A stretch of 64,000 nt of DNA from Streptomyces sp. NBC_01478 (GTDB lineage Bacteria; Actinomycetota; Actinomycetes; Streptomycetales; Streptomycetaceae). The stretch covers positions 3,701,501-3,765,500 of the forward strand of contig NZ_CP109444.1 in the NCBI RefSeq assembly GCF_036227225.1, in the 5' to 3' direction. Under the pieces are notes generated by a model. That model worked only from the letters and a program-made list of their open reading frames with translations. It was not told the DNA's origin and made no database searches. The translations under genes were made by a program, and so were the position numbers. Below are positions 56,053 to 64,000 of the stretch, in pieces; the first letter of the stretch is position 1; each line of letters opens with the position of its first letter.

Positions 56053-58284
56053 TCAGCCGAGCGGGGTCATGGCTCTCGACCAGATGCCGTAGGGGACGTC
56101 GGTGACTGGGGTGCCGGAAACTCCCTTCAGCGGCAGTGGTTCCAGGCTCTTGGTCAGATCGATGCGGTAGACGACGACCGCGGTCGACACGGACTTGGCC
56201 GTGCCGACGTACCAGGCGGCGGTGTCGTCCTGGGTGGTGCCGGTCTTGCCCGCCACCTCGGTCCCCGCGGTCTTGGCGGCGGTGGGATGCGCGAGGCCGA
56301 AGGAGTCCGTGAGCGCCTCCGTCACCTCACGCGCGGTCTCCTTGCTGATCGCCCGGTTCGGCTCCGGCCGCGCCAGGGCGACCGTGGCTCCGTTGCGGGT
56401 GATACGGCGGACCGAGTACGGCTCGGTGTGGACGCCCCCGGCGTCGAACGTGCCGTACGCGCTCGCCATGCGCAAGGCACTGGGCGTGGCATTGCCCAGC
56501 GACAGCGCGGGCACCTGTGCCCCGAAACTGGACGACAGCAGCCCGGCCGCCTCCGCGGTCTTCCGTACGGTCGTCAGGCCGGTGTCCATGCCGAGCTGCA
56601 TGAACGGGGTGTTCACGGACTGGGCGAGGGCCTGGCGCAGGCTGATCTGCCCGTAGGACTTGTCGCCTTCGTTGTGCGCGGACACCTTCTTGCCGCTGCG
56701 GTCCCAGTACGGCCCCTCCGGTGTGGTGACCGGCACGGCGTCGTTCCCGTCGTACAGCGTGTCCGGGGTGACCGAAGTCGGCGGGCTGCCACGGGTCTTG
56801 GTGACCCCGTGCTCCAGCGCGGCGGCATAGACGAACGGCTCGAAGGCCGAACCGGCGGGGACGGTGGTGGAGTTGGAGTCGTTGTAGCCCTGCGTACGGT
56901 GGTCGGGGCCGCCGTAGACGGCGAGGATCCGGCCGTCGGAGGCCACCGAGGAGGCGCCGTAGTGCGCGGTCTTCGCCTTGGCGGGGTCCTCCTCGACCGC
57001 GTCCTTGCGGGCCTTGTTCACGGCGTCCGTCAGCTCGGTCTCGCGGTTGCGGTCGAACGTCGTGTAGATCTGGTAGCCGCCGAGGTCGAAGTCCTTGTCC
57101 GAGATGTGCGCGGTCTTCTTCACGTACTGGGTGGCCAGTTCGACCAGATAGTCGCTCTGCTTTCCGGTGTCGTACGTCTTCGACTGCTTGAGCGGCTCGG
57201 GGAAGGTCTTGTACTTGGCGCGCTCGGCCGGCGACAGCTTGCCGATCTTCACCATGCGGTCCAGGATCCAGGACCAACGGGCCACCGCCCGGGCGTGGTT
57301 GGCCTTGCTGAGCGTCGGGTCGTAGAGGCCCGCGCCCTTCAGCAGCGAGGCGAGGAAGGCGCCTTGGCTCGCGTTGAGCTGGCTGACGTCCTTGCCGTAG
57401 TACGCCTGCGAGGCGCGCTGCAGACCGTAGGTGCCGCGGCCGAACCAACTGGTGTTGAGATAGCCCTCGAGGATCTTGTCCTTGCTCATCTTGTTGTCGA
57501 GCTTGAGGGAGATCATCGCCTCGGTGAATTTGCGGCTCACCGTCTGGTTCTGGGTCAGATAGACGTTTTTGACGTATTGCTGGGTGATCGTCGAGCCGCC
57601 CTCGGTGTCCCCCTCGCCGACCGTGCGGTAGAGGGCGCGGGCGATGCCCTTCATGGAGATGCCGGGGTCGCTGTAGAAGCTCTCGTTCTCGGCGGCGAGC
57701 ACCGCCCAGCGGACGTCCTCGGGGATGTCCTTCAGCGGCATCGCCTGCCGCTGCACCCAGCCGGTACGGGCCATGGGCGTCCCGTCCGACCAGAAGTACA
57801 CGTTGTCCTGCTGGGTCGCGTACGAGTTGAGGTTCGAGGGGATGTCGGTGGTCGCGTAGGCGACGACCAGGAACAGTCCGCTGAGGCCGAAGGAGGCGAG
57901 CACGCCGCCGAGCCACTGCCGCCAGGAGGGTATCCAGCGGCGCCAGTCGGTACGGCCCGGGCGCGGGTACTGCGGGCGCATCCTGCGGACGTACGGAGTG
58001 AGGAAGATCACCACCGGGGCGAGGCGGGCGACGACCGGGGCGAAGCGGGGGCCGAGGGCGGCGGCGAGGCGGGAGAGACGGGTGCGGAGGGACGGGCGGG
58101 GGGCTTTGCGGCCCCGGTGCCGTACCGGTTTCGTCTCCCCCTCGGGTATCTCCGACGCGCGGGGGATCTCCAGATCGGACAACCGCAGTTGCATGGTCTC
58201 GTCCGGCCTGAACCCGGCGGGGAGCTTCAACTGCATGGTCTCGTCCGGTGCCTGGCGCTCCTCCCCGTCCCCCTCGTGGGTCAC
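56053..58284 (-). CDS. Class A penicillin-binding protein with altered SxxK motif
   Basis: A 743-residue bifunctional PBP. GTG 58284 follows GGAGGGGAGTCGC. A cytoplasmic tail with two DETMQL repeats precedes the single membrane helix (GGVLASFGLSGLFLVVAYAT). The glycosyltransferase domain is intact: AVLAAENESFYSDPGISMKG, EGGSTITQQYVKNVYL, RKFTEAMISLKLDNKMSKDK. In the transpeptidase domain Ser479 lies in AGSAFEPFVYAAAL, where the SxxK lysine position is Glu482. SVN (SVNTPFM) and KTG (Lys680, GKTGTTQDD) remain. The protein may be a glycosyltransferase with an inactive or altered transpeptidase. Confidence 0.9.
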   Translation of the reverse strand: MTHEGDGEERQAPDETMQLKLPAGFRPDETMQLRLSDLEIPRASEIPEGETKPVRHRGRKAPRPSLRTRLSRLAAALGPRFAPVVARLAPVVIFLTPYVRRMRPQYPRPGRTDWRRWIPSWRQWLGGVLASFGLSGLFLVVAYATTDIPSNLNSYATQQDNVYFWSDGTPMARTGWVQRQAMPLKDIPEDVRWAVLAAENESFYSDPGISMKGIARALYRTVGEGDTEGGSTITQQYVKNVYLTQNQTVSRKFTEAMISLKLDNKMSKDKILEGYLNTSWFGRGTYGLQRASQAYYGKDVSQLNASQGAFLASLLKGAGLYDPTLSKANHARAVARWSWILDRMVKIGKLSPAERAKYKTFPEPLKQSKTYDTGKQSDYLVELATQYVKKTAHISDKDFDLGGYQIYTTFDRNRETELTDAVNKARKDAVEEDPAKAKTAHYGASSVASDGRILAVYGGPDHRTQGYNDSNSTTVPAGSAFEPFVYAAALEHGVTKTRGSPPTSVTPDTLYDGNDAVPVTTPEGPYWDRSGKKVSAHNEGDKSYGQISLRQALAQSVNTPFMQLGMDTGLTTVRKTAEAAGLLSSSFGAQVPALSLGNATPSALRMASAYGTFDAGGVHTEPYSVRRITRNGATVALARPEPNRAISKETAREVTEALTDSFGLAHPTAAKTAGTEVAGKTGTTQDDTAAWYVGTAKSVSTAVVVYRIDLTKSLEPLPLKGVSGTPVTDVPYGIWSRAMTPLG

Positions 58285-58537
58285 GACGCGACTCCCCTCC
58301 GCACTCCGTATTGCTCGCACAGGCAGACGCATTGACGTACGAGGGTCTGAAATGGTTGCCGTGAACACGACTGCAAATCCCGGTTCCCCCCGGCCTCACA
58401 GATCACGCGGCGCCCTCAAATTACCAGTGGTCTTCGCAAGTTCTCCATATAAGAAAACGACAGAACAGGACACAGCCGAAACCTTCATGAAAAAACAAGG
58501 TGCCGTACTCATGTGAGGTGGGGGTTAGCCTGAGGCC

Positions 58538-58839: not shown

Positions 58840-59655
58840 CTAGGGGGCGGGGGTTGCCGTCGCTCGGAGGAACTCGCGGAGGATGCGCTCCCCCGCCAGT
58901 ACTCCCCGCTCGGGTAGGGCCGTGACCTGTGGGGCCGTCCAGGACTCGTCTGCCAGTTCGCCGTGGCCCGGGCGCCAGGCCTTGTCTGCTGCCAGCAGGA
59001 GGTCGGCGTCCAGGAGGGAGTCTCCCGCAGCCAGGGTCAGGGTGGCGCCGGTTCTGTGGGCCACCTCTCGCATCGCCGCGCTCTTGGTGAGGGGCTTGGG
59101 GACGGCGTAGATCTTGCGGCCCTGGAGGGAGACCGTCCAGCCTCGGTTCTCCGCCCAGACCGCCAGCTCCTTCACCCACTCCTCGGGGAGGAGTTCGCGC
59201 TCCACGACCAGGTAGGCGAAGAGGTCCTCGGCGATGCGGTGCTTGCGGACCCAGGCCGGGTCGGCGGAGTCGGCCAGGTGCCGGCGGACCTCCTCCAGGG
59301 GCGCGCACTCGGCGGCCAGCTTCACTTGTACCCGGGCGTGCCAGTCCTCGTCGGTCACGCCGTCGACGAGGAGGTGGCCGCCGTTGGCGCAGATCGCGTA
59401 CTTCGGTTCCGGGCCGGGCAGGCTGATGCGCTGGTACTGCTTGCGGGTGCGGGTGGTGGTCGGCACGAACACGGCCGCGTCACCGAGTTCGGTAAGCAGT
59501 TCGGCCGACGTCTCCGTCATGAAGGACAGCGGCTTGCTCTCGTGCACCTCGACGCAGAGCAGCCGGGGCGCCCGCGCGTCCGGCATGGTCAGGGCGAGGG
59601 CGGCCGCGGAGTAGATGAGCGTACGGTCGAGGTCGCTCGCGACGAGTACCGGCAT
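58840..59655 (-). CDS. HAD family phosphatase of the Ter-associated cluster
   Basis: A 271-residue HAD hydrolase (Cof/MPGP-like). Motif I LVASDLDRTLIYSAAALALT carries DxD; motif II VPTTTRTRKQYQRI; LTKSAAMREVAHRTGATLTL the Lys region; motif IV AAGDSLLDADLLLAADKAWR. The cap is inserted after motif II. Its gene follows the fused PRTase protein with no gap, and it belongs to the HAD component of the conserved Ter biosynthetic module. It would dephosphorylate a nucleotide or sugar intermediate of that pathway. The exact product is unknown. Confidence 0.9.
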   Translation of the reverse strand: MPVLVASDLDRTLIYSAAALALTMPDARAPRLLCVEVHESKPLSFMTETSAELLTELGDAAVFVPTTTRTRKQYQRISLPGPEPKYAICANGGHLLVDGVTDEDWHARVQVKLAAECAPLEEVRRHLADSADPAWVRKHRIAEDLFAYLVVERELLPEEWVKELAVWAENRGWTVSLQGRKIYAVPKPLTKSAAMREVAHRTGATLTLAAGDSLLDADLLLAADKAWRPGHGELADESWTAPQVTALPERGVLAGERILREFLRATATPAP

Positions 59656-62198
59656 CAGACCGCCACCGCCTTGCCGTCGGCACCGGTCGCACCGCGCGTG
59701 TACTTGGGGTGGATCAACCCCACGCAGGTGTACGGCAGTTCGGCCACCTCCTCGACGGGCACGCCTCTCTGCTCGGCGAGCAGTCTGACGTGGTCGAGGT
59801 CGGCGCCCGCACCGGCCCGCGCAAGGATCTTCCAGGGCACCCGGCGCAGCAGCACCCGGGTGGTCTCGCCGACGCCGGGCTTGACGAGGTTCACGTCGTG
59901 GATGCCGTACTCCTCGCTGATCCGCTCAACTGCCGCCCAGCCCTCCCAGGTTGGCGTGCGGTCGGCGGCCAGCAGTTCCTTGGCGAGGGTCGCCACGGCA
60001 TCCGTGACGTCCGGGAAGCGGGCGGCCACCGCGTCCAGGAAGTCCACCGAGACGTCCACGCCCGCGAGTTCGCGGTAGAACTTCGCGCCGTGGAAGTCGT
60101 GCGGGCCGACCAGGTCGGAGCGCAGGACAGTGCGCGAAATGAGCCCGGACACGGTCGAGTTGAGGCAGGCGGAGGGGATGAGGAAGTCCTCGCGGGTGCC
60201 GTACGTCTTCACGCAGGAGCCGGGGTCGGCGAGCACCGCGATCTCCGGGTCGAAGCCGGTGATGCCGTCGGACTCCTCGAACTCCTTGATCGCGTCGGCG
60301 AGTTCGCGGGTGATGGCGCCCTTGCCGGTCCAGCCGTCGACGAACACGATGTCGGCGGGGTCGTGGTGGGCGGCGAGATAGCGCAGCGCGTTGGCGTCGA
60401 TGCCTCGGCCGCGCACGATCGACACGGCGTAGTGCGGCAGGTCGAGACCGTGCCGGTACTGGGCCCAGCGGCGCATCAGGACACCGACGGGGGTGCCGGC
60501 GCGGGCGAGCGAGACGAGCACGGGGTGCGGTGAGCGCTCGGCGAGGACCAGTTCGGTGACCGCCCCTACGGCCAGCGCGAGTCTTCCGGCGGCCTCGTCC
60601 AGGGCGGTGTGGAACAGCTCCTGGTACTGCTCACTGGGCTGGTACTCCACCGGCAGCGACTCCGCGTAGTGCGCGCCGCCGCTCTGGATGGCCTCCTCGC
60701 GCTCCTCGGTCGGCGCCTCCAGCGTCACGTCCGAGAGGTCCTGGAGCAGCCAGCCGACCTCGTCGGGCGCGTACGAGGAGAAGGCGGGGCCGCGGAGGGG
60801 CTCGGGCAGCATGGGGGGCCTTTCGGGGACGTACGAGGGGATCACCGCGAGGACGACGTGCGGGGTGTGCGCGGCCAACTGGTCGAGCAGGCCGTGCAGT
60901 TCGGGGGTGTCCGCGCGGGAGTCCACGACCGCGACCACGGCGTCGAAGCCGGCGCCGGCGATGTTGTAGGCGTAGCGGTCGCCGGGGCCGTCGGCGGGGG
61001 TGTCGTGGGCGGGGAAGGTGAGGCGGGTGCGGATCGCGTAGCCGGGGTCGTCCACCGCGAGGACGGGTGAGCGGGTGGTGGTGGAGTAGGTGACGCCGGC
61101 GTTGACGACCTGCTCCAGCTCGCGGGCGAGTCTGAGGGGGGCGTACATCAGCTCTTCGAAGCCGAGGATGTGCACGCGGTGCGCGCCCTCCGGGAGGGCT
61201 TCGGCGAGGCGGGCTGCCATGGCCGGAAGGGCGGCTTCCAGGCGTATTCGGTGCTGAGGGGTGAAGCCGTGTCTTCCGCCGTCGGGGAGGTTGTGGGGCC
61301 AGCGGAGATCGACTCGGCGGGTGCGGTTGTCGGCCGGGTGCGGGTCCGTTGTGGCTGGTCGCGCAGTTCCCCGCGCCCCTGGGGGGTTGGCGTCCAGGTG
61401 GGTTTTCAGGGGCGCGGGGAACTGCGCGGCCAGCCCCGACGGCGCCGCAGCCGACGAACCACCTGTCCCGGCACCCCCTGTCTCGTACCGCGCCACCAAC
61501 TCCTGCCCCTTCTCCAGCACCCCCGCCGGCAGGCGAACCGTCCCCGATGCCGCTGCCACCAAGTCGACCCTCGCGCCTATCTCCGCCGCGAACTCGTCCA
61601 GGCGTCCGGCGTCGGCAGCGGAACGCATGTCCACCAGGGCGACCACCACGTACCGGTCTCGCGGATAGCGCTCGTGCAGGTCGCGGATGGTGTTCAGGAC
61701 CGTGTTGCCCGTCGAGAACTCGTCGTCGACCAGGACCAACGGGCCCTCGCTGGCCAGGAGTTCGGGGTTCTCGGGGAGCAGGAGGTGGGAGGTCGCGTGG
61801 GAGTGGGACTCCTCGAAGCCGCCCGCCGTAGCCACGCCGGGGACGGGGCGGCGGGTGGAGTGGAGGTAGGGGGCGACGGCGATGCCGTCCGCCACCGCGT
61901 GGCCCAGGCCCGTCGCGGTTTCCGCGTAGCCGAGGACCACCGCCCGGCGGGACTCGTCCGGGCCCAGGAGGTCGCGCACGCGTCGGCCCAGGGTGAAGCC
62001 GTGGCCGTAGACGATCGACGGGGACTGGGGGACGTGCTTGCCGAGCACGTTCGACACCAGGAGGTGGGCCCGCTTGGGGTTGCGGCGGAGGGCCAGGCCC
62101 AGGAGGTCGGTCAGCTCGGGGTCGCCGAGGAGCTCGACACCGAGCCGCTCCGCGACCCAACTGCCCGACCAGATCCCGTCGTTCACTGCCTTGTTCAT
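59655..62198 (-). CDS. Fused PRTase-TRSP and StiP/PRTase_1-like protein of the Ter-associated cluster
   Basis: An 847-residue protein. Residues 1-250 are a phosphoribosyltransferase domain: RNPKRAHLLVSNVLGKHVPQ and the PRPP loop LVLVDDEFSTGNTVLNTIRD at about 153-172. Residues about 295-460 are the TRSP domain (HRIRLEAALPAMAARLAEAL; YMAPLRL-type LMYAPLRLARELE). Residues about 463-847 are the StiP/PRTase_1 family: LRGPAFSSYAPDEVGWLLQD, VLVSLARAGTPVGVLMRRWA, FVDGWTGKGAITRELADAIK. Residues about 255-290 are an inserted palindrome. An internal ATG at 60812 after GAAAGG may also start the second half alone. ATG 62198 follows AAGGGACGC. Confidence 0.88.
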   Translation of the reverse strand: MNKAVNDGIWSGSWVAERLGVELLGDPELTDLLGLALRRNPKRAHLLVSNVLGKHVPQSPSIVYGHGFTLGRRVRDLLGPDESRRAVVLGYAETATGLGHAVADGIAVAPYLHSTRRPVPGVATAGGFEESHSHATSHLLLPENPELLASEGPLVLVDDEFSTGNTVLNTIRDLHERYPRDRYVVVALVDMRSAADAGRLDEFAAEIGARVDLVAAASGTVRLPAGVLEKGQELVARYETGGAGTGGSSAAAPSGLAAQFPAPLKTHLDANPPGARGTARPATTDPHPADNRTRRVDLRWPHNLPDGGRHGFTPQHRIRLEAALPAMAARLAEALPEGAHRVHILGFEELMYAPLRLARELEQVVNAGVTYSTTTRSPVLAVDDPGYAIRTRLTFPAHDTPADGPGDRYAYNIAGAGFDAVVAVVDSRADTPELHGLLDQLAAHTPHVVLAVIPSYVPERPPMLPEPLRGPAFSSYAPDEVGWLLQDLSDVTLEAPTEEREEAIQSGGAHYAESLPVEYQPSEQYQELFHTALDEAAGRLALAVGAVTELVLAERSPHPVLVSLARAGTPVGVLMRRWAQYRHGLDLPHYAVSIVRGRGIDANALRYLAAHHDPADIVFVDGWTGKGAITRELADAIKEFEESDGITGFDPEIAVLADPGSCVKTYGTREDFLIPSACLNSTVSGLISRTVLRSDLVGPHDFHGAKFYRELAGVDVSVDFLDAVAARFPDVTDAVATLAKELLAADRTPTWEGWAAVERISEEYGIHDVNLVKPGVGETTRVLLRRVPWKILARAGAGADLDHVRLLAEQRGVPVEEVAELPYTCVGLIHPKYTRGATGADGKAVAV
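61331..61435. repeat. Full palindromic repeat inserted in the PRTase gene
   Basis: Arms 61353-61380 and 61408-61435 (GGCTGGTCGCGCAGTTCCCC, then GCGCCCCT) match at 27 of 28 positions around a 27-nt loop. The flank GGGTGCGGGTCCGTTGTG at 61336-61353 is shared with the 58765 copy. The whole adds about 35 codons in frame, between the PRTase and TRSP domains. Confidence 0.9.
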
Positions 62199-62212
62199 GC
62201 GTCCCTTGCGAT

Positions 62213-63379
62213 TCAGCCGGGGATTCCGGCGGCGAGCAGCTCCACGAAGCCGACGTCCTCGCGTGCGACGCCGAAGATCTCGGCGCGCAGCATGGTCCGC
62301 TCGGCCCAGGCGCGGTGCGGCTTCACCTCGTTCATCTTGTTCGTGTACGCCGAGCGCAGCACGCCCCCGCCGCCCCGCTCCGGCCGCAGGATGTCCTGCG
62401 CGTCGCAGAACTCCTCGTGGCTGACCACGGACAGCGCGTGCACGGGCAGCACGTGCGTGGGGTGGATACAGGTCTTGCCCATCAGCCCGTTGGCCTGGTC
62501 GAGGGCGATCTCGCGCAGCAGCCCGTCCATGGCGTGCTCGATCAGCGCCTCGCGCAGTTCCTCCGCCTTGCCCTCCAGGAAGGGGCTGCGGCGCAACTGC
62601 GGCTTGAACATGCGCTCCTGGACCCGGAAGTACTCCCACACCGGGCCGGTCACGGTGAACCCGGTGCCGTCGGCCCGGCCCAGCATGTTCACCACGTCGC
62701 CGATCACGTTGGCGACGATCTGGACGTCGTAGGCCGTCATGTCGGAGGCCCGGCGCAGGCCGTAGGAGGAGCAGAAGTCGGTGACGCCGAGGCGCAGGGC
62801 GAGGACGCGGTCGCGGTACTTGTCGACCGCGCGGGAGATGCCTTCCAGGGTCTCGACGCGCGACTCGCGGTAGAGCAGCTCGGGCGACTCCAGGACCGGC
62901 ATGCCGAAGAGCCGGTGGCCGCTCGCCGCCTCCGCGGCGGCCAGCGCCTCCAGGAAGGGCGTGCCGCTCTCCTCGGTGAACTTCGGCATCACGAAGCCGG
63001 AGAGGAGTGCCACGGCCGGGCCCATGCGGCGTACGAGATCGGGGATCTGCTCGGGCACGCGGACCCGGATGAACAGCAGCGGGAGCTCGGTGTCCGGGCG
63101 GGCGGCCAGCTCGGTGAACTGCCGGACCAGGTTCTCCTCGGCGGCCGGGACGTCCTCGTCGCCGATCGAGTCCTCCAGGCACAGCACCATCGACACGACG
63201 CCGCGTCCCGCCAGCTTGACGATGTCGTCGGCGAGGTGGGGGCGGGTGGCCGGGCTGTAGAGCGTGGCGCCCAGGGCCGCGGCGAGCAGCCGGGCCGGGG
63301 AGTCCGCGTCGAACTCGCACGGCTCCTGGAAGAAGAGATGCTGCCGTACCTCAGGGGCAATGTGCCCGAAATGACGCAT
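62213..63379 (-). CDS. HpcH/HpaI (CitE-like) aldolase/lyase of the Ter-associated cluster
   Basis: A 388-residue TIM-barrel CitE-like lyase. LPLLFIRVRVPEQIPDLVRR and GFVMPKFTEESGTPFLEALA supply the Arg/substrate and metal strands, LESPELLYRESRVETLEGIS the metal Glu, LRLGVTDFCSSYGLRRASDM the metal Asp, and CIHPTHVLPVHALSV the CoA/phosphate His end. ATG 63379 follows GGGGGAGCTTT. It is the first gene of the minus-strand cluster, 14 nt before the PRTase fusion, and is divergent from TerD. It would condense or cleave a 2-oxo or acyl unit during synthesis of the unknown Ter-linked metabolite. Confidence 0.9.
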   Translation of the reverse strand: MRHFGHIAPEVRQHLFFQEPCEFDADSPARLLAAALGATLYSPATRPHLADDIVKLAGRGVVSMVLCLEDSIGDEDVPAAEENLVRQFTELAARPDTELPLLFIRVRVPEQIPDLVRRMGPAVALLSGFVMPKFTEESGTPFLEALAAAEAASGHRLFGMPVLESPELLYRESRVETLEGISRAVDKYRDRVLALRLGVTDFCSSYGLRRASDMTAYDVQIVANVIGDVVNMLGRADGTGFTVTGPVWEYFRVQERMFKPQLRRSPFLEGKAEELREALIEHAMDGLLREIALDQANGLMGKTCIHPTHVLPVHALSVVSHEEFCDAQDILRPERGGGGVLRSAYTNKMNEVKPHRAWAERTMLRAEIFGVAREDVGFVELLAAGIPG

Positions 63380-63555
63380 AAAGCTCCCCCGTGGTGACGT
63401 TGTGGTTCGTGATTGTTTTCGATAGGTGGCCGGTAATAGTACGTACAAACCCATGTCAGGGGTTCCCGCCGGGCATGAACTTCAGGTAACTCGGCCGTGT
63501 CGGTGTCCGAACCCCCACGTTGTCGTGACCAGGACCGAGAGGGCAGGATGACCGC

Positions 63556-64000
63556 ATGACGCACGCGATGCTGAAGGGGTCGAACGTCCCGCTGGAAGCC
63601 ACCACGGTACGCGCCGTGCTGCGCTGGACGCCCGGGCAGGGGGTCCCGGACGTGGATGCCTCGGCGCTGCTCCTCGGCCCCGCCGGTCAGGTGCGTTCCG
63701 ACGAGGACTTCGTCTTCTACAACCAGCCCCGGCACCCCTCCGGGAAGGTCTGGTGGCTCGGCAAGAAGCGTGTCACGGAGGGCCCCACCGACACGATCCA
63801 GACAGATCTCGCCGGTGTCGAGCCCGAAGTCAGCCGGATTCTGGTGGTCGCTTCGGCGGAGGACAACACGTTCGACCGCGTAAAGGGGCTGCGCATCCTG
63901 TTGTACGACGCCGCCGTCGCCGAGGGTGAGCCGCTGCTGTATTTCGACATCAAGCCGGAGACCGGTGAGGAGACCGCGCTGATCTGCGGGGAGCTGTACC
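63556..64000 (+). CDS. TerD family protein (3' end outside window)
   Basis: A TerD-like protein from ATG 63556: [20 protein letters not shown] has the LKGSNVPL opening of the family. [20 protein letters not shown] and [20 protein letters not shown], then [20 protein letters not shown], follow. The acidic calcium loops here are less complete than in the TerD at 17660. It diverges from the CitE-PRTase-HAD operon, the usual gene order of Ter-associated clusters, so they probably form one stress response unit. The next genes, not visible, may include an ATP-grasp enzyme. Confidence 0.92.

Follow-up and report, generated by a model that had tools for sequence, protein, structure and literature searches.

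What is made by the biosynthetic enzymes that many bacteria keep beside their TerD and TerC genes? A Ter biosynthetic module of this kind was reportedly predicted by Anantharaman, Iyer and Aravind in 2012, and we know of no product for it. Here we analyze such a locus at the right end of a 64,000-nucleotide window from Streptomyces sp. NBC_01478 (C1:3701501-3765500 on a single 12.1-Mb contig), a region that we read for a further 12.5 kb past the right edge (L009). The minus strand carries, in order, genes for a C-C bond lyase, for a fusion protein with a phosphoribosyltransferase (PRTase) domain, and for a haloacid dehalogenase-type (HAD) phosphatase, and a TerD gene is divergent from this operon. 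The locus is the Ter biosynthetic module, a kind of locus already known, in a form that is chromosomal and shared across the genus Streptomyces; its gene content, conservation, motifs and co-occurrence are established here. As the best reading of its function we propose, with moderate confidence, that phosphoribosyl transfer from phosphoribosyl pyrophosphate (PRPP), C-C tailoring and dephosphorylation together yield a ribose-containing small molecule.

The locus is a conserved Ter biosynthetic module

The arrangement was compared across the best 80 of 363 Streptomyces loci found, all 80 of which bear the Streptomyces name. TerD is divergent from and adjacent to the lyase gene in all 80. The PRTase fusion and HAD genes follow the lyase on the same strand in each of the 73 loci with at least 4.8 kb of flank (7 short contigs were dropped), and TerC-like, TerD-like, TerD and peroxiredoxin genes lie on the other side in each of the 72 with at least 7 kb (8 dropped). 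This four-gene arrangement is not chance. A 14-nt gap separates the lyase and fusion genes, and the fusion and HAD genes share a single base where the stop of one meets the start of the other, so the three genes likely form one transcript.

The same proteins co-occur in wider samples. Among 296 genomes of the class (114 genera, with 28 genomes from the same genus, our own included), StiP was found in 68 (E <= 1e-10) and the lyase in 67 (E <= 1e-30), every lyase genome falling within the StiP set; both are present in all 28 same-genus genomes, and the 14 lyase genera lie inside the 15 StiP genera. Probabilities computed for these overlaps take no account of common ancestry. In the one genome with StiP alone (G207) the contig ends within the PRTase gene, so its lyase may lie off the contig. 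Within a phylum sample of 149 genomes, StiP occurs in six. Five of these also carry a lyase scoring above 400 bits; in the sixth (G130) the StiP match is weaker, at 103.8 bits, and a lyase is absent at E <= 1e-10. Eight other genomes have lyase matches of just 42-49 bits and no StiP. TerD was tested in 30 of the 69 StiP-bearing genomes found (29 of the 30 also have the lyase) and was present in all 30, so a module living without TerD is unsupported. It can lie ~15 kb away, as in G225 (StiP at 4394047, TerD at 4409782), and five loci of family f63 (L148-L151, L153) had no TerD match in the 13-18 kb stretch read. Our plasmid survey covered 72,556 records, of which 2309 match the lyase family (E <= 1e-20; gene context read in six annotated records) and 2554 match the Pseudomonas HAD described below (E <= 1e-5; context read in two). 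Both StiP and the lyase also have matches in MT836648, a 15-kb record without annotation.

All of the defining members of the module are found at the window locus: a PF15617 lyase, PRTase_2 with TRSP, StiP with PELOTA, a HAD of the module family, and TerD and TerC genes nearby. An earlier note, made from the window sequence, had named the lyase, PRTase-TRSP-StiP, HAD and TerD genes, described TerD as divergent and assigned the group to the Ter-linked set, and our searches confirm each of these points. PELOTA as a fourth domain, StiP as a putative second PRTase-like domain, the genus-wide conservation and the solved HAD relative go beyond it.

Comparison with known forms shows how variable the packaging is. 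On the IncHI2 plasmid pIOMTU413, lyase, PRTase, HAD-type and StiP genes stand beside TerD/TerC as they do in the window, and the plasmid copies align with the window's protein families; the window module differs in being chromosomal, in joining four domains in one protein and in having its ATP-grasp gene unlinked. Two P. aeruginosa plasmids (CP109686 and CP137894) carry ATP-grasp, PRTase_2-TRSP, StiP-PELOTA, lyase and a HAD of the type solved in the PDB within a Ter cluster, but as separate genes and with a second HAD (PF12710), and CP137894 also has a TerD-trypsin protein. The Ter operon of Acinetobacter phage vB_AbaM_ME3 has PRTase_2, an annotated haloacid dehalogenase and StiP-PELOTA, with vWA and membrane-protein neighbors (partial text of PMC7824862); it showed no lyase match, and the stretch read has no gene annotated as ATP-grasp. 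Plasmids of E. coli, Brevibacillus, Lactococcus and Mycobacteroides encode PRTase and StiP separately within one cluster; Streptomyces and several other members of the class have them in a single protein. From these gene sets, the smallest shared core seems to be two PRTase-like domains plus a HAD.

The fusion protein and the lyase

Loop and catalytic-motif residues are kept in the lyase, PRTase_2, StiP and HAD. The PRTase_2 domain has both the hhDDxxxTG loop and the fold of a type I phosphoribosyltransferase, and aligns best with nucleobase PRTases. The structural alignment rows for the fusion, obtained with an AlphaFold2 model (mean predicted local distance difference test score, pLDDT, 80.2; predicted template modeling score, pTM, 0.56), fall on this part of the protein. 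In the neighboring TRSP domain, T374, R376, S377 and P378 are invariant in the 14 aligned sequences. Some PyrR alignment rows end at 371-379, within TRSP (the range gives end residues only), and the PyrR profile match overlaps TRSP in part; these observations hint that TRSP could be a degenerate fragment of a PRTase.

The StiP domain has two loops, S-x-x-RAG-x-P-x-G and F-[VIL]-DGW-[TS]-GKG, that are kept in all 22 homologues surveyed (members of the class, Bacillota, actinobacterial and proteobacterial plasmids, and one phage). In the predicted model of the fusion, each loop sits after a strand and before a helix. Such strand-loop-helix placement is the pattern of type I PRTases. The loops, the predicted order of strands and helices and a published prediction thus support, without proving, the view that StiP is a second PRTase-like domain. 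PELOTA_1 is predicted to be an L7Ae-like, RNA-binding domain, and through the PELOTA part the profile reaches ribosomal L7Ae-type PDB entries only at E 0.022.

The lyase matches PF15617 (C-C_Bond_Lyase) at 3.9e-122 (407.9 bits). Its AlphaFold2 model (pLDDT 84.8, pTM 0.86) found an acyl-CoA lyase (9nzb, 2.7e-11) and a citramalyl-CoA lyase (8khl, 3.4e-11) with Foldseek, and the nearest solved folds also include CLYBL (5vxc); identity is 13-20% among the matches listed. E163, D200, R104 and R106 (residue 1 being the one that follows the start Met) are invariant in all 27 aligned sequences. We take E163 and D200 to be the expected Mg ligands and R104 and R106 to have their family roles. The lyase has the TIM barrel, conserved Glu/Asp metal ligands and Arg of CitE-like enzymes, and shares its fold and conserved Glu, Asp and Arg with CLYBL and the citramalyl-CoA and malyl-CoA lyases. 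It differs from the CitE-like acyl-coenzyme A (acyl-CoA) lyases in having its own Pfam family and a longer chain, and its use of CoA is a prediction.

Two side observations concern the lyase gene. In several other actinobacterial modules it is preceded by an open reading frame (ORF) of ~395-450 residues (Table 1) that matches no family above its cut-off; two of these ORFs have sub-threshold matches to long helical families. In the f63 loci L149 and L150 the module stands beside acetyl-CoA synthetase-like genes, and L150 also has a carbohydrate phosphorylase-like gene. Going by this gene context, acetyl-CoA could be a fitting substrate for a CitE-like lyase.

The module phosphatase has a solved relative

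The window HAD has no Pfam match, PF02358 included, and so does not qualify as OtsB. A phmmer search connected it with PDB 6CJ0/6D3V (E 1.1e-9), and a profile built from 21 module HADs (the window HAD and those of 20 other module loci) matched 6D3V, 6D3W and 6CJ0 across nearly the whole chain (E 5e-38). The window HAD is 27% identical to this PDB relative (E 9.6e-15) and keeps the catalytic columns; the catalytic-motif residues D8, D10, T67, K191, G211, D212 and D216 are kept in 25 or 26 of 26 homologues. All three PDB entries were deposited as 'Trehalose phosphatase'.

The PDB protein and the product of OI910_34015, a gene of the P. aeruginosa plasmid p2017-45-137A (CP109686), differ at a single position out of 252. 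The neighbors of OI910_34015 are ATP-grasp (PF15632), PRTase_2-TRSP, StiP-PELOTA, C-C lyase, a second HAD, TerD, TerB, TerC, TerD and TerD, with the first four all above their Pfam cut-offs and two IS1182 transposases inserted within the Ter cluster. Plasmid pR11-08 (CP137894) has a HAD 93.7% identical and the same order without the transposases, plus a trypsin-like and an extra TerD gene. Except for one residue, then, the HAD of a Pseudomonas Ter module is the protein deposited as trehalose phosphatase. The HAD genes of the two Pseudomonas modules lie at L168:8983-9741 and L169:8983-9741. In the second module, a gene between ATP-grasp and PRTase (L169:6657-7796) encodes a protein that combines a TerD-like domain (33.2 bits) with a trypsin-like one.

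An extrachromosomal P. aeruginosa enzyme served as a trehalose 6-phosphate phosphatase in which Cys85 and Cys231 are singled out as special, according to the available part of PMC6838324. Both Pseudomonas module HADs have cysteines exactly at 85 and 231. Our literature search returned no paper naming both 'trehalose-6-phosphate phosphatase' and 'tellurite resistance'; Cross et al. 2018 lay outside this search. That study is said to describe a chromosomal and an extrachromosomal enzyme and the structure of the chromosomal one. The assayed and the crystallized Pseudomonas proteins may therefore be two close variants. Because the plasmid genes sit inside Ter biosynthetic modules, the 'trehalose phosphatase' annotation probably names the wrong physiological substrate.

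The ATP-grasp gene is unlinked

The earlier note had suggested looking to the right of the window for an ATP-grasp gene. None was found in the adjoining 12.5 kb; the Ter ATP-grasp gene of this genome is at C1:9739641, ~6 Mb from the locus (PF15632, 1.9e-34), where it is solitary between sugar hydrolase genes and a phosphoesterase gene (neighbors assigned by eye). Two further matches to PF15632 in the genome are borderline, scoring 29.3 and 29.4 bits where the cut-off is 29.1. The ATP-grasp protein scores 118 bits, compared with 129 for the IncHI2-linked and 135 for the Pseudomonas plasmid-linked proteins.

Searching with the genome's own protein (E <= 1e-40, six candidates scored per genome), we found ATP-grasp in 17 of the 296 class genomes, all 17 with StiP. 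Fourteen are among the 28 same-genus genomes, 13 of them at 76-100% identity and one at 41%. Two of the three matches outside the genus have one in-frame TAG, and the third is in G212, where the gene shares a contig with StiP, the lyase, TelA and a TerC-like gene. Module-linked ATP-grasp genes were thus seen on the IncHI2 plasmid, the Pseudomonas plasmids and the G212 contig; none is annotated in the Lactococcus, Mycobacteroides, Prescottella and Alkaliphilus module stretches. From this distribution, we conclude that ATP-grasp is a part of the module that Streptomyces has either relocated or lost. A linked copy, which is an optional member of the module, is missing at the window locus.

Regulation of the operon

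A candidate promoter of the extracytoplasmic function (ECF) sigma type, GGAAC-N18-CGTACT, precedes the lyase operon (Table 1) and is the single match in the window, against 0.01 expected. The form GGAAC-N17/18-CGTAC occurs upstream of the lyase in 75 of the 80 Streptomyces loci and zero times upstream of the other seven genes tested in them. A looser motif ending in CGT was found on the reverse strand of the lyase upstream region in 4/80 loci, before TerD in 4/80, before TerD2 in 2/80 and before TerD3, at the far right, in 74/78; TerD3 has the same -35 with CGTTG in 73/80. This promoter-like block upstream of TerD3, CGGGAACCCGTCACTAGGATCGA..CGTTGATCC (L009:11365-11400, minus strand, 73/80 loci), has its -35 in common with the lyase operon.

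Published numbering allows a tentative map of the locus onto SCO genes. The sigma-E target list names sco2368, and sco2362-sco2364 are absent from the available part of that paper (PMC6767563). The sigma-E motif printed there has a 3-mismatch match inside the peroxiredoxin gene, upstream of TerD3, and we therefore take sco2368 to be TerD3; this fits the counting of SCO2367-68 as tellurium resistance proteins (partial text of PMC7244524). By gene count from TerD3, we infer that SCO2364 would be the window TerD and SCO2362/Sven_2176 the fusion. FasR is, we believe, SCO2386, and we think the number SCO2366 in print for it a misprint. That printed number, in the available part of PMC8981147, is the map position of the TerC-like gene and so counts against the map.

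In S. venezuelae, starvation for nitrogen raises the expression of Sven_2176/SCO2362 more than 5-fold in a GlnR-dependent manner; the gene is not in the GlnR chromatin immunoprecipitation (ChIP) target list (both from the available part of PMC3087709). A loose GlnR-box pattern occurs in the intergenic region of 19/80 loci, with the window as a further occurrence. Given a loose pattern in 19 of 80 loci and a gene outside the available ChIP list, direct GlnR control is not claimed. An antisense RNA opposite sco2364 is conserved in three Streptomyces species (partial text of PMC3765725); this RNA could be the lyase operon's leader.

Proposed pathway and alternatives

How might these enzymes act together? 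PRTase_2, in which the full PRPP loop is kept, would transfer 5-phosphoribosyl from PRPP to an acceptor, with TRSP as an accessory, and StiP would either add a second phosphoribosyl group or bind the phosphoribosylated intermediate. The fusion would hold both domains in one protein, and PELOTA may bind a nucleotide- or RNA-like substrate. The Mg-dependent CitE-like lyase would make or break a C-C bond, probably with an acyl-CoA or keto-acid; the unlinked ATP-grasp, where present, would add an amide or peptide bond; and the HAD would strip the 5-phosphate of the ribosyl part, freeing a product for possible sensing or use by TerD/TerC proteins when envelope, redox or nutrient stress sets in. Phage ME3 keeps PRTase, HAD and StiP without a lyase match, so the lyase step is apparently dispensable. 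The earlier note had deduced ribosyl phosphate transfer, condensation and dephosphorylation from the gene order; these steps are plausible by composition, but gene order does not give reaction order. Its statement that a nucleoside- or nucleotide-like product had been proposed is sound, being stated in the available part of a jumbo-phage review (PMC7824862).

Several results weigh against the proposal. A StiP profile search of the PDB found no PRTase, its best matches being the L7Ae-type entries at E 0.022; a StiP versus PRTase_2 profile comparison gave a probability of 0.3%, no signal; and for the fusion the fold search bore mainly on PRTase_2, not on StiP. The family match to PF15632 is in itself unspecific, since it is also made by 13/14 control genomes. 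Half of the same-genus genomes (14/28) have no ATP-grasp match at E <= 1e-40 with six candidates each, and in those 14 the enzyme would so be non-essential or replaced. A Brevibacillus plasmid copy of the module has no Ter gene or HAD among its annotated neighbors. What has been reported for the HAD relative is activity toward trehalose 6-phosphate, not a nucleotide, and the locus itself is known here from sequence and predicted structures.

The trehalose 6-phosphate activity could point to a different product. The PRTase could join phosphoribose to a sugar-like hydroxyl and the HAD then dephosphorylate it, giving not a nucleoside but a ribosyl glycoside (pseudo-disaccharide). The action of BtrL and then BtrP in ribostamycin biosynthesis is a precedent for such a route. 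A pocket for a disaccharide phosphate would explain the trehalose 6-phosphate activity for which a P. aeruginosa enzyme was used (available part of PMC6838324), and both the one-residue identity of the Pseudomonas module HAD to the solved protein and the Cys85/Cys231 match speak for this idea. The activity on trehalose 6-phosphate may, however, be promiscuous, identity to the Streptomyces HAD is just 27%, and PRTase_2 aligns best with nucleobase PRTases; we consider this route unlikely. We are equally doubtful of its fullest form, in which the P. aeruginosa 'trehalose phosphatase' is the last enzyme of a pseudo-disaccharide pathway that in Streptomyces is a core, stress- and nitrogen-regulated one.

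Catabolism or repair, in which the lyase runs in the cleavage direction and a damaged or foreign nucleotide is dismantled, has a similarly low probability in our estimate. The proteins nearest to the lyase in fold carry lyase names (acyl-CoA, citramalyl-CoA, malyl-CoA), and the more than 5-fold, GlnR-dependent induction of Sven_2176/SCO2362 under nitrogen starvation resembles that of a scavenging enzyme (partial text of PMC3087709). Two PRTase-like domains and an ATP-grasp nevertheless point to synthesis, the SCO gene mapping is inferred, and the gene is outside the GlnR ChIP list as far as that text goes.

Could the HAD instead be what the PDB name and the reported activity of its relative say, a true trehalose 6-phosphate phosphatase in an operon for trehalose or osmotic protection? 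The window genome has an OtsB-family gene (PF02358, 92.4 bits) adjoining an OtsA-family gene (PF00982, 338.6 bits) 1.6 Mb away, and with its own OtsA-OtsB pair the module HAD is not needed for trehalose. The PF02358 match belongs to that gene and not to the window HAD, and neither the PRTase nor the lyase suits trehalose synthesis, which makes this explanation very improbable. About 10 kb separate the OtsA-OtsB pair from a high-scoring TerD gene (278.6 bits; G000:C1:5346357-5359836).

Finally, that StiP is a cysteine protease processing a Ter protein, as its Pfam name and plasmid-record annotations would have it, we regard as scarcely credible, since no cysteine is invariant in the 22 homologues (the best kept, C224, is present in 18 and missing in IncHI2, two Pseudomonas plasmids and phage ME3) while both PRTase-like loops are present in all 22.

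Features of the locus and its neighbors

Coordinates are collected in Table 1. The ORF listing starts the lyase frame at an earlier ATG than the 388-residue form given there. Right of TerD follow, in order, a Ter-type ORF, a TerC-like gene, two TerD genes and a peroxiredoxin gene, and beyond these DUF3052-like, AceE-like and other genes (assigned by eye). The Ter-type ORF is TerD-like by eye, has no NCBIfam match and is not among the PF02342 matches. The TerC-like membrane protein matches the NCBIfam PRK14013/YkoY families. TerB, TerF, TerY and TelA were not seen by eye in the 12.5 kb to the right, where no family-directed search was made. On the other side, beside the HAD gene, a large ORF at window positions 56053-58368 (minus strand) is penicillin-binding protein-like by eye. 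The genome has 15 places with a TerD domain, and one PRTase_2 and one C-C lyase over cut-off; S. prunicolor has a lyase with 98% identity to it.

Table 1. Positions of the module genes, domains and related features (window coordinates unless a locus is named).
Feature	Position	Strand	Basis
HAD phosphatase, 271 aa	58840-59655	-	phmmer and family profile
PRTase_2-TRSP-StiP-PELOTA_1 fusion, 847 aa	59655-62198	-	Pfam; length equals database entry P0121
PELOTA_1 domain	59709..59948	-	PF15608, 4.1e-35, 119.8 bits
StiP domain, loops SLARAGTP and FVDGWTGKG	60027..60779	-	PF11202, 2.2e-106, 355.1 bits
TRSP domain	60876..61283	-	PF12500, 1.1e-39, 135.7 bits
PRTase_2 domain, PRPP loop LVDDExSTG	61542..62105	-	Pfam, 1.3e-67, 227.4 bits
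C-C bond lyase, CitE-like, 388 aa	62213-63379	-	PF15617; length equals database entry P0001
Candidate ECF-sigma promoter of the lyase operon, GGAAC-N18-CGTACT	63438..63466	-	motif match
TerD-family gene, divergent	63556-64314 (L009:7056-7814), 314 nt beyond the window edge	+	PF02342, 9.2e-32 for the in-window part, 150.7 bits for the whole protein
Family-less pre-lyase ORFs of other modules	L143:4549-5892, L144:4054-5370, L163:7784-8968, L166:7763-8953		

Implications

What is novel here is the link between the module and a solved, assayed enzyme, together with the unlinked ATP-grasp gene, the failure of the protease label and the conserved promoter candidate. 'Trehalose phosphatase' is probably a misleading name for the module HADs, and 'cysteine protease StiP' is probably another. 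The reach of the module is wide, with lyase-family matches in 2309 plasmid records and lyase plus StiP in all 28 same-genus genomes sampled. With a crystal structure and an assay already in existence for one of its enzymes, the chemistry of the module becomes testable.

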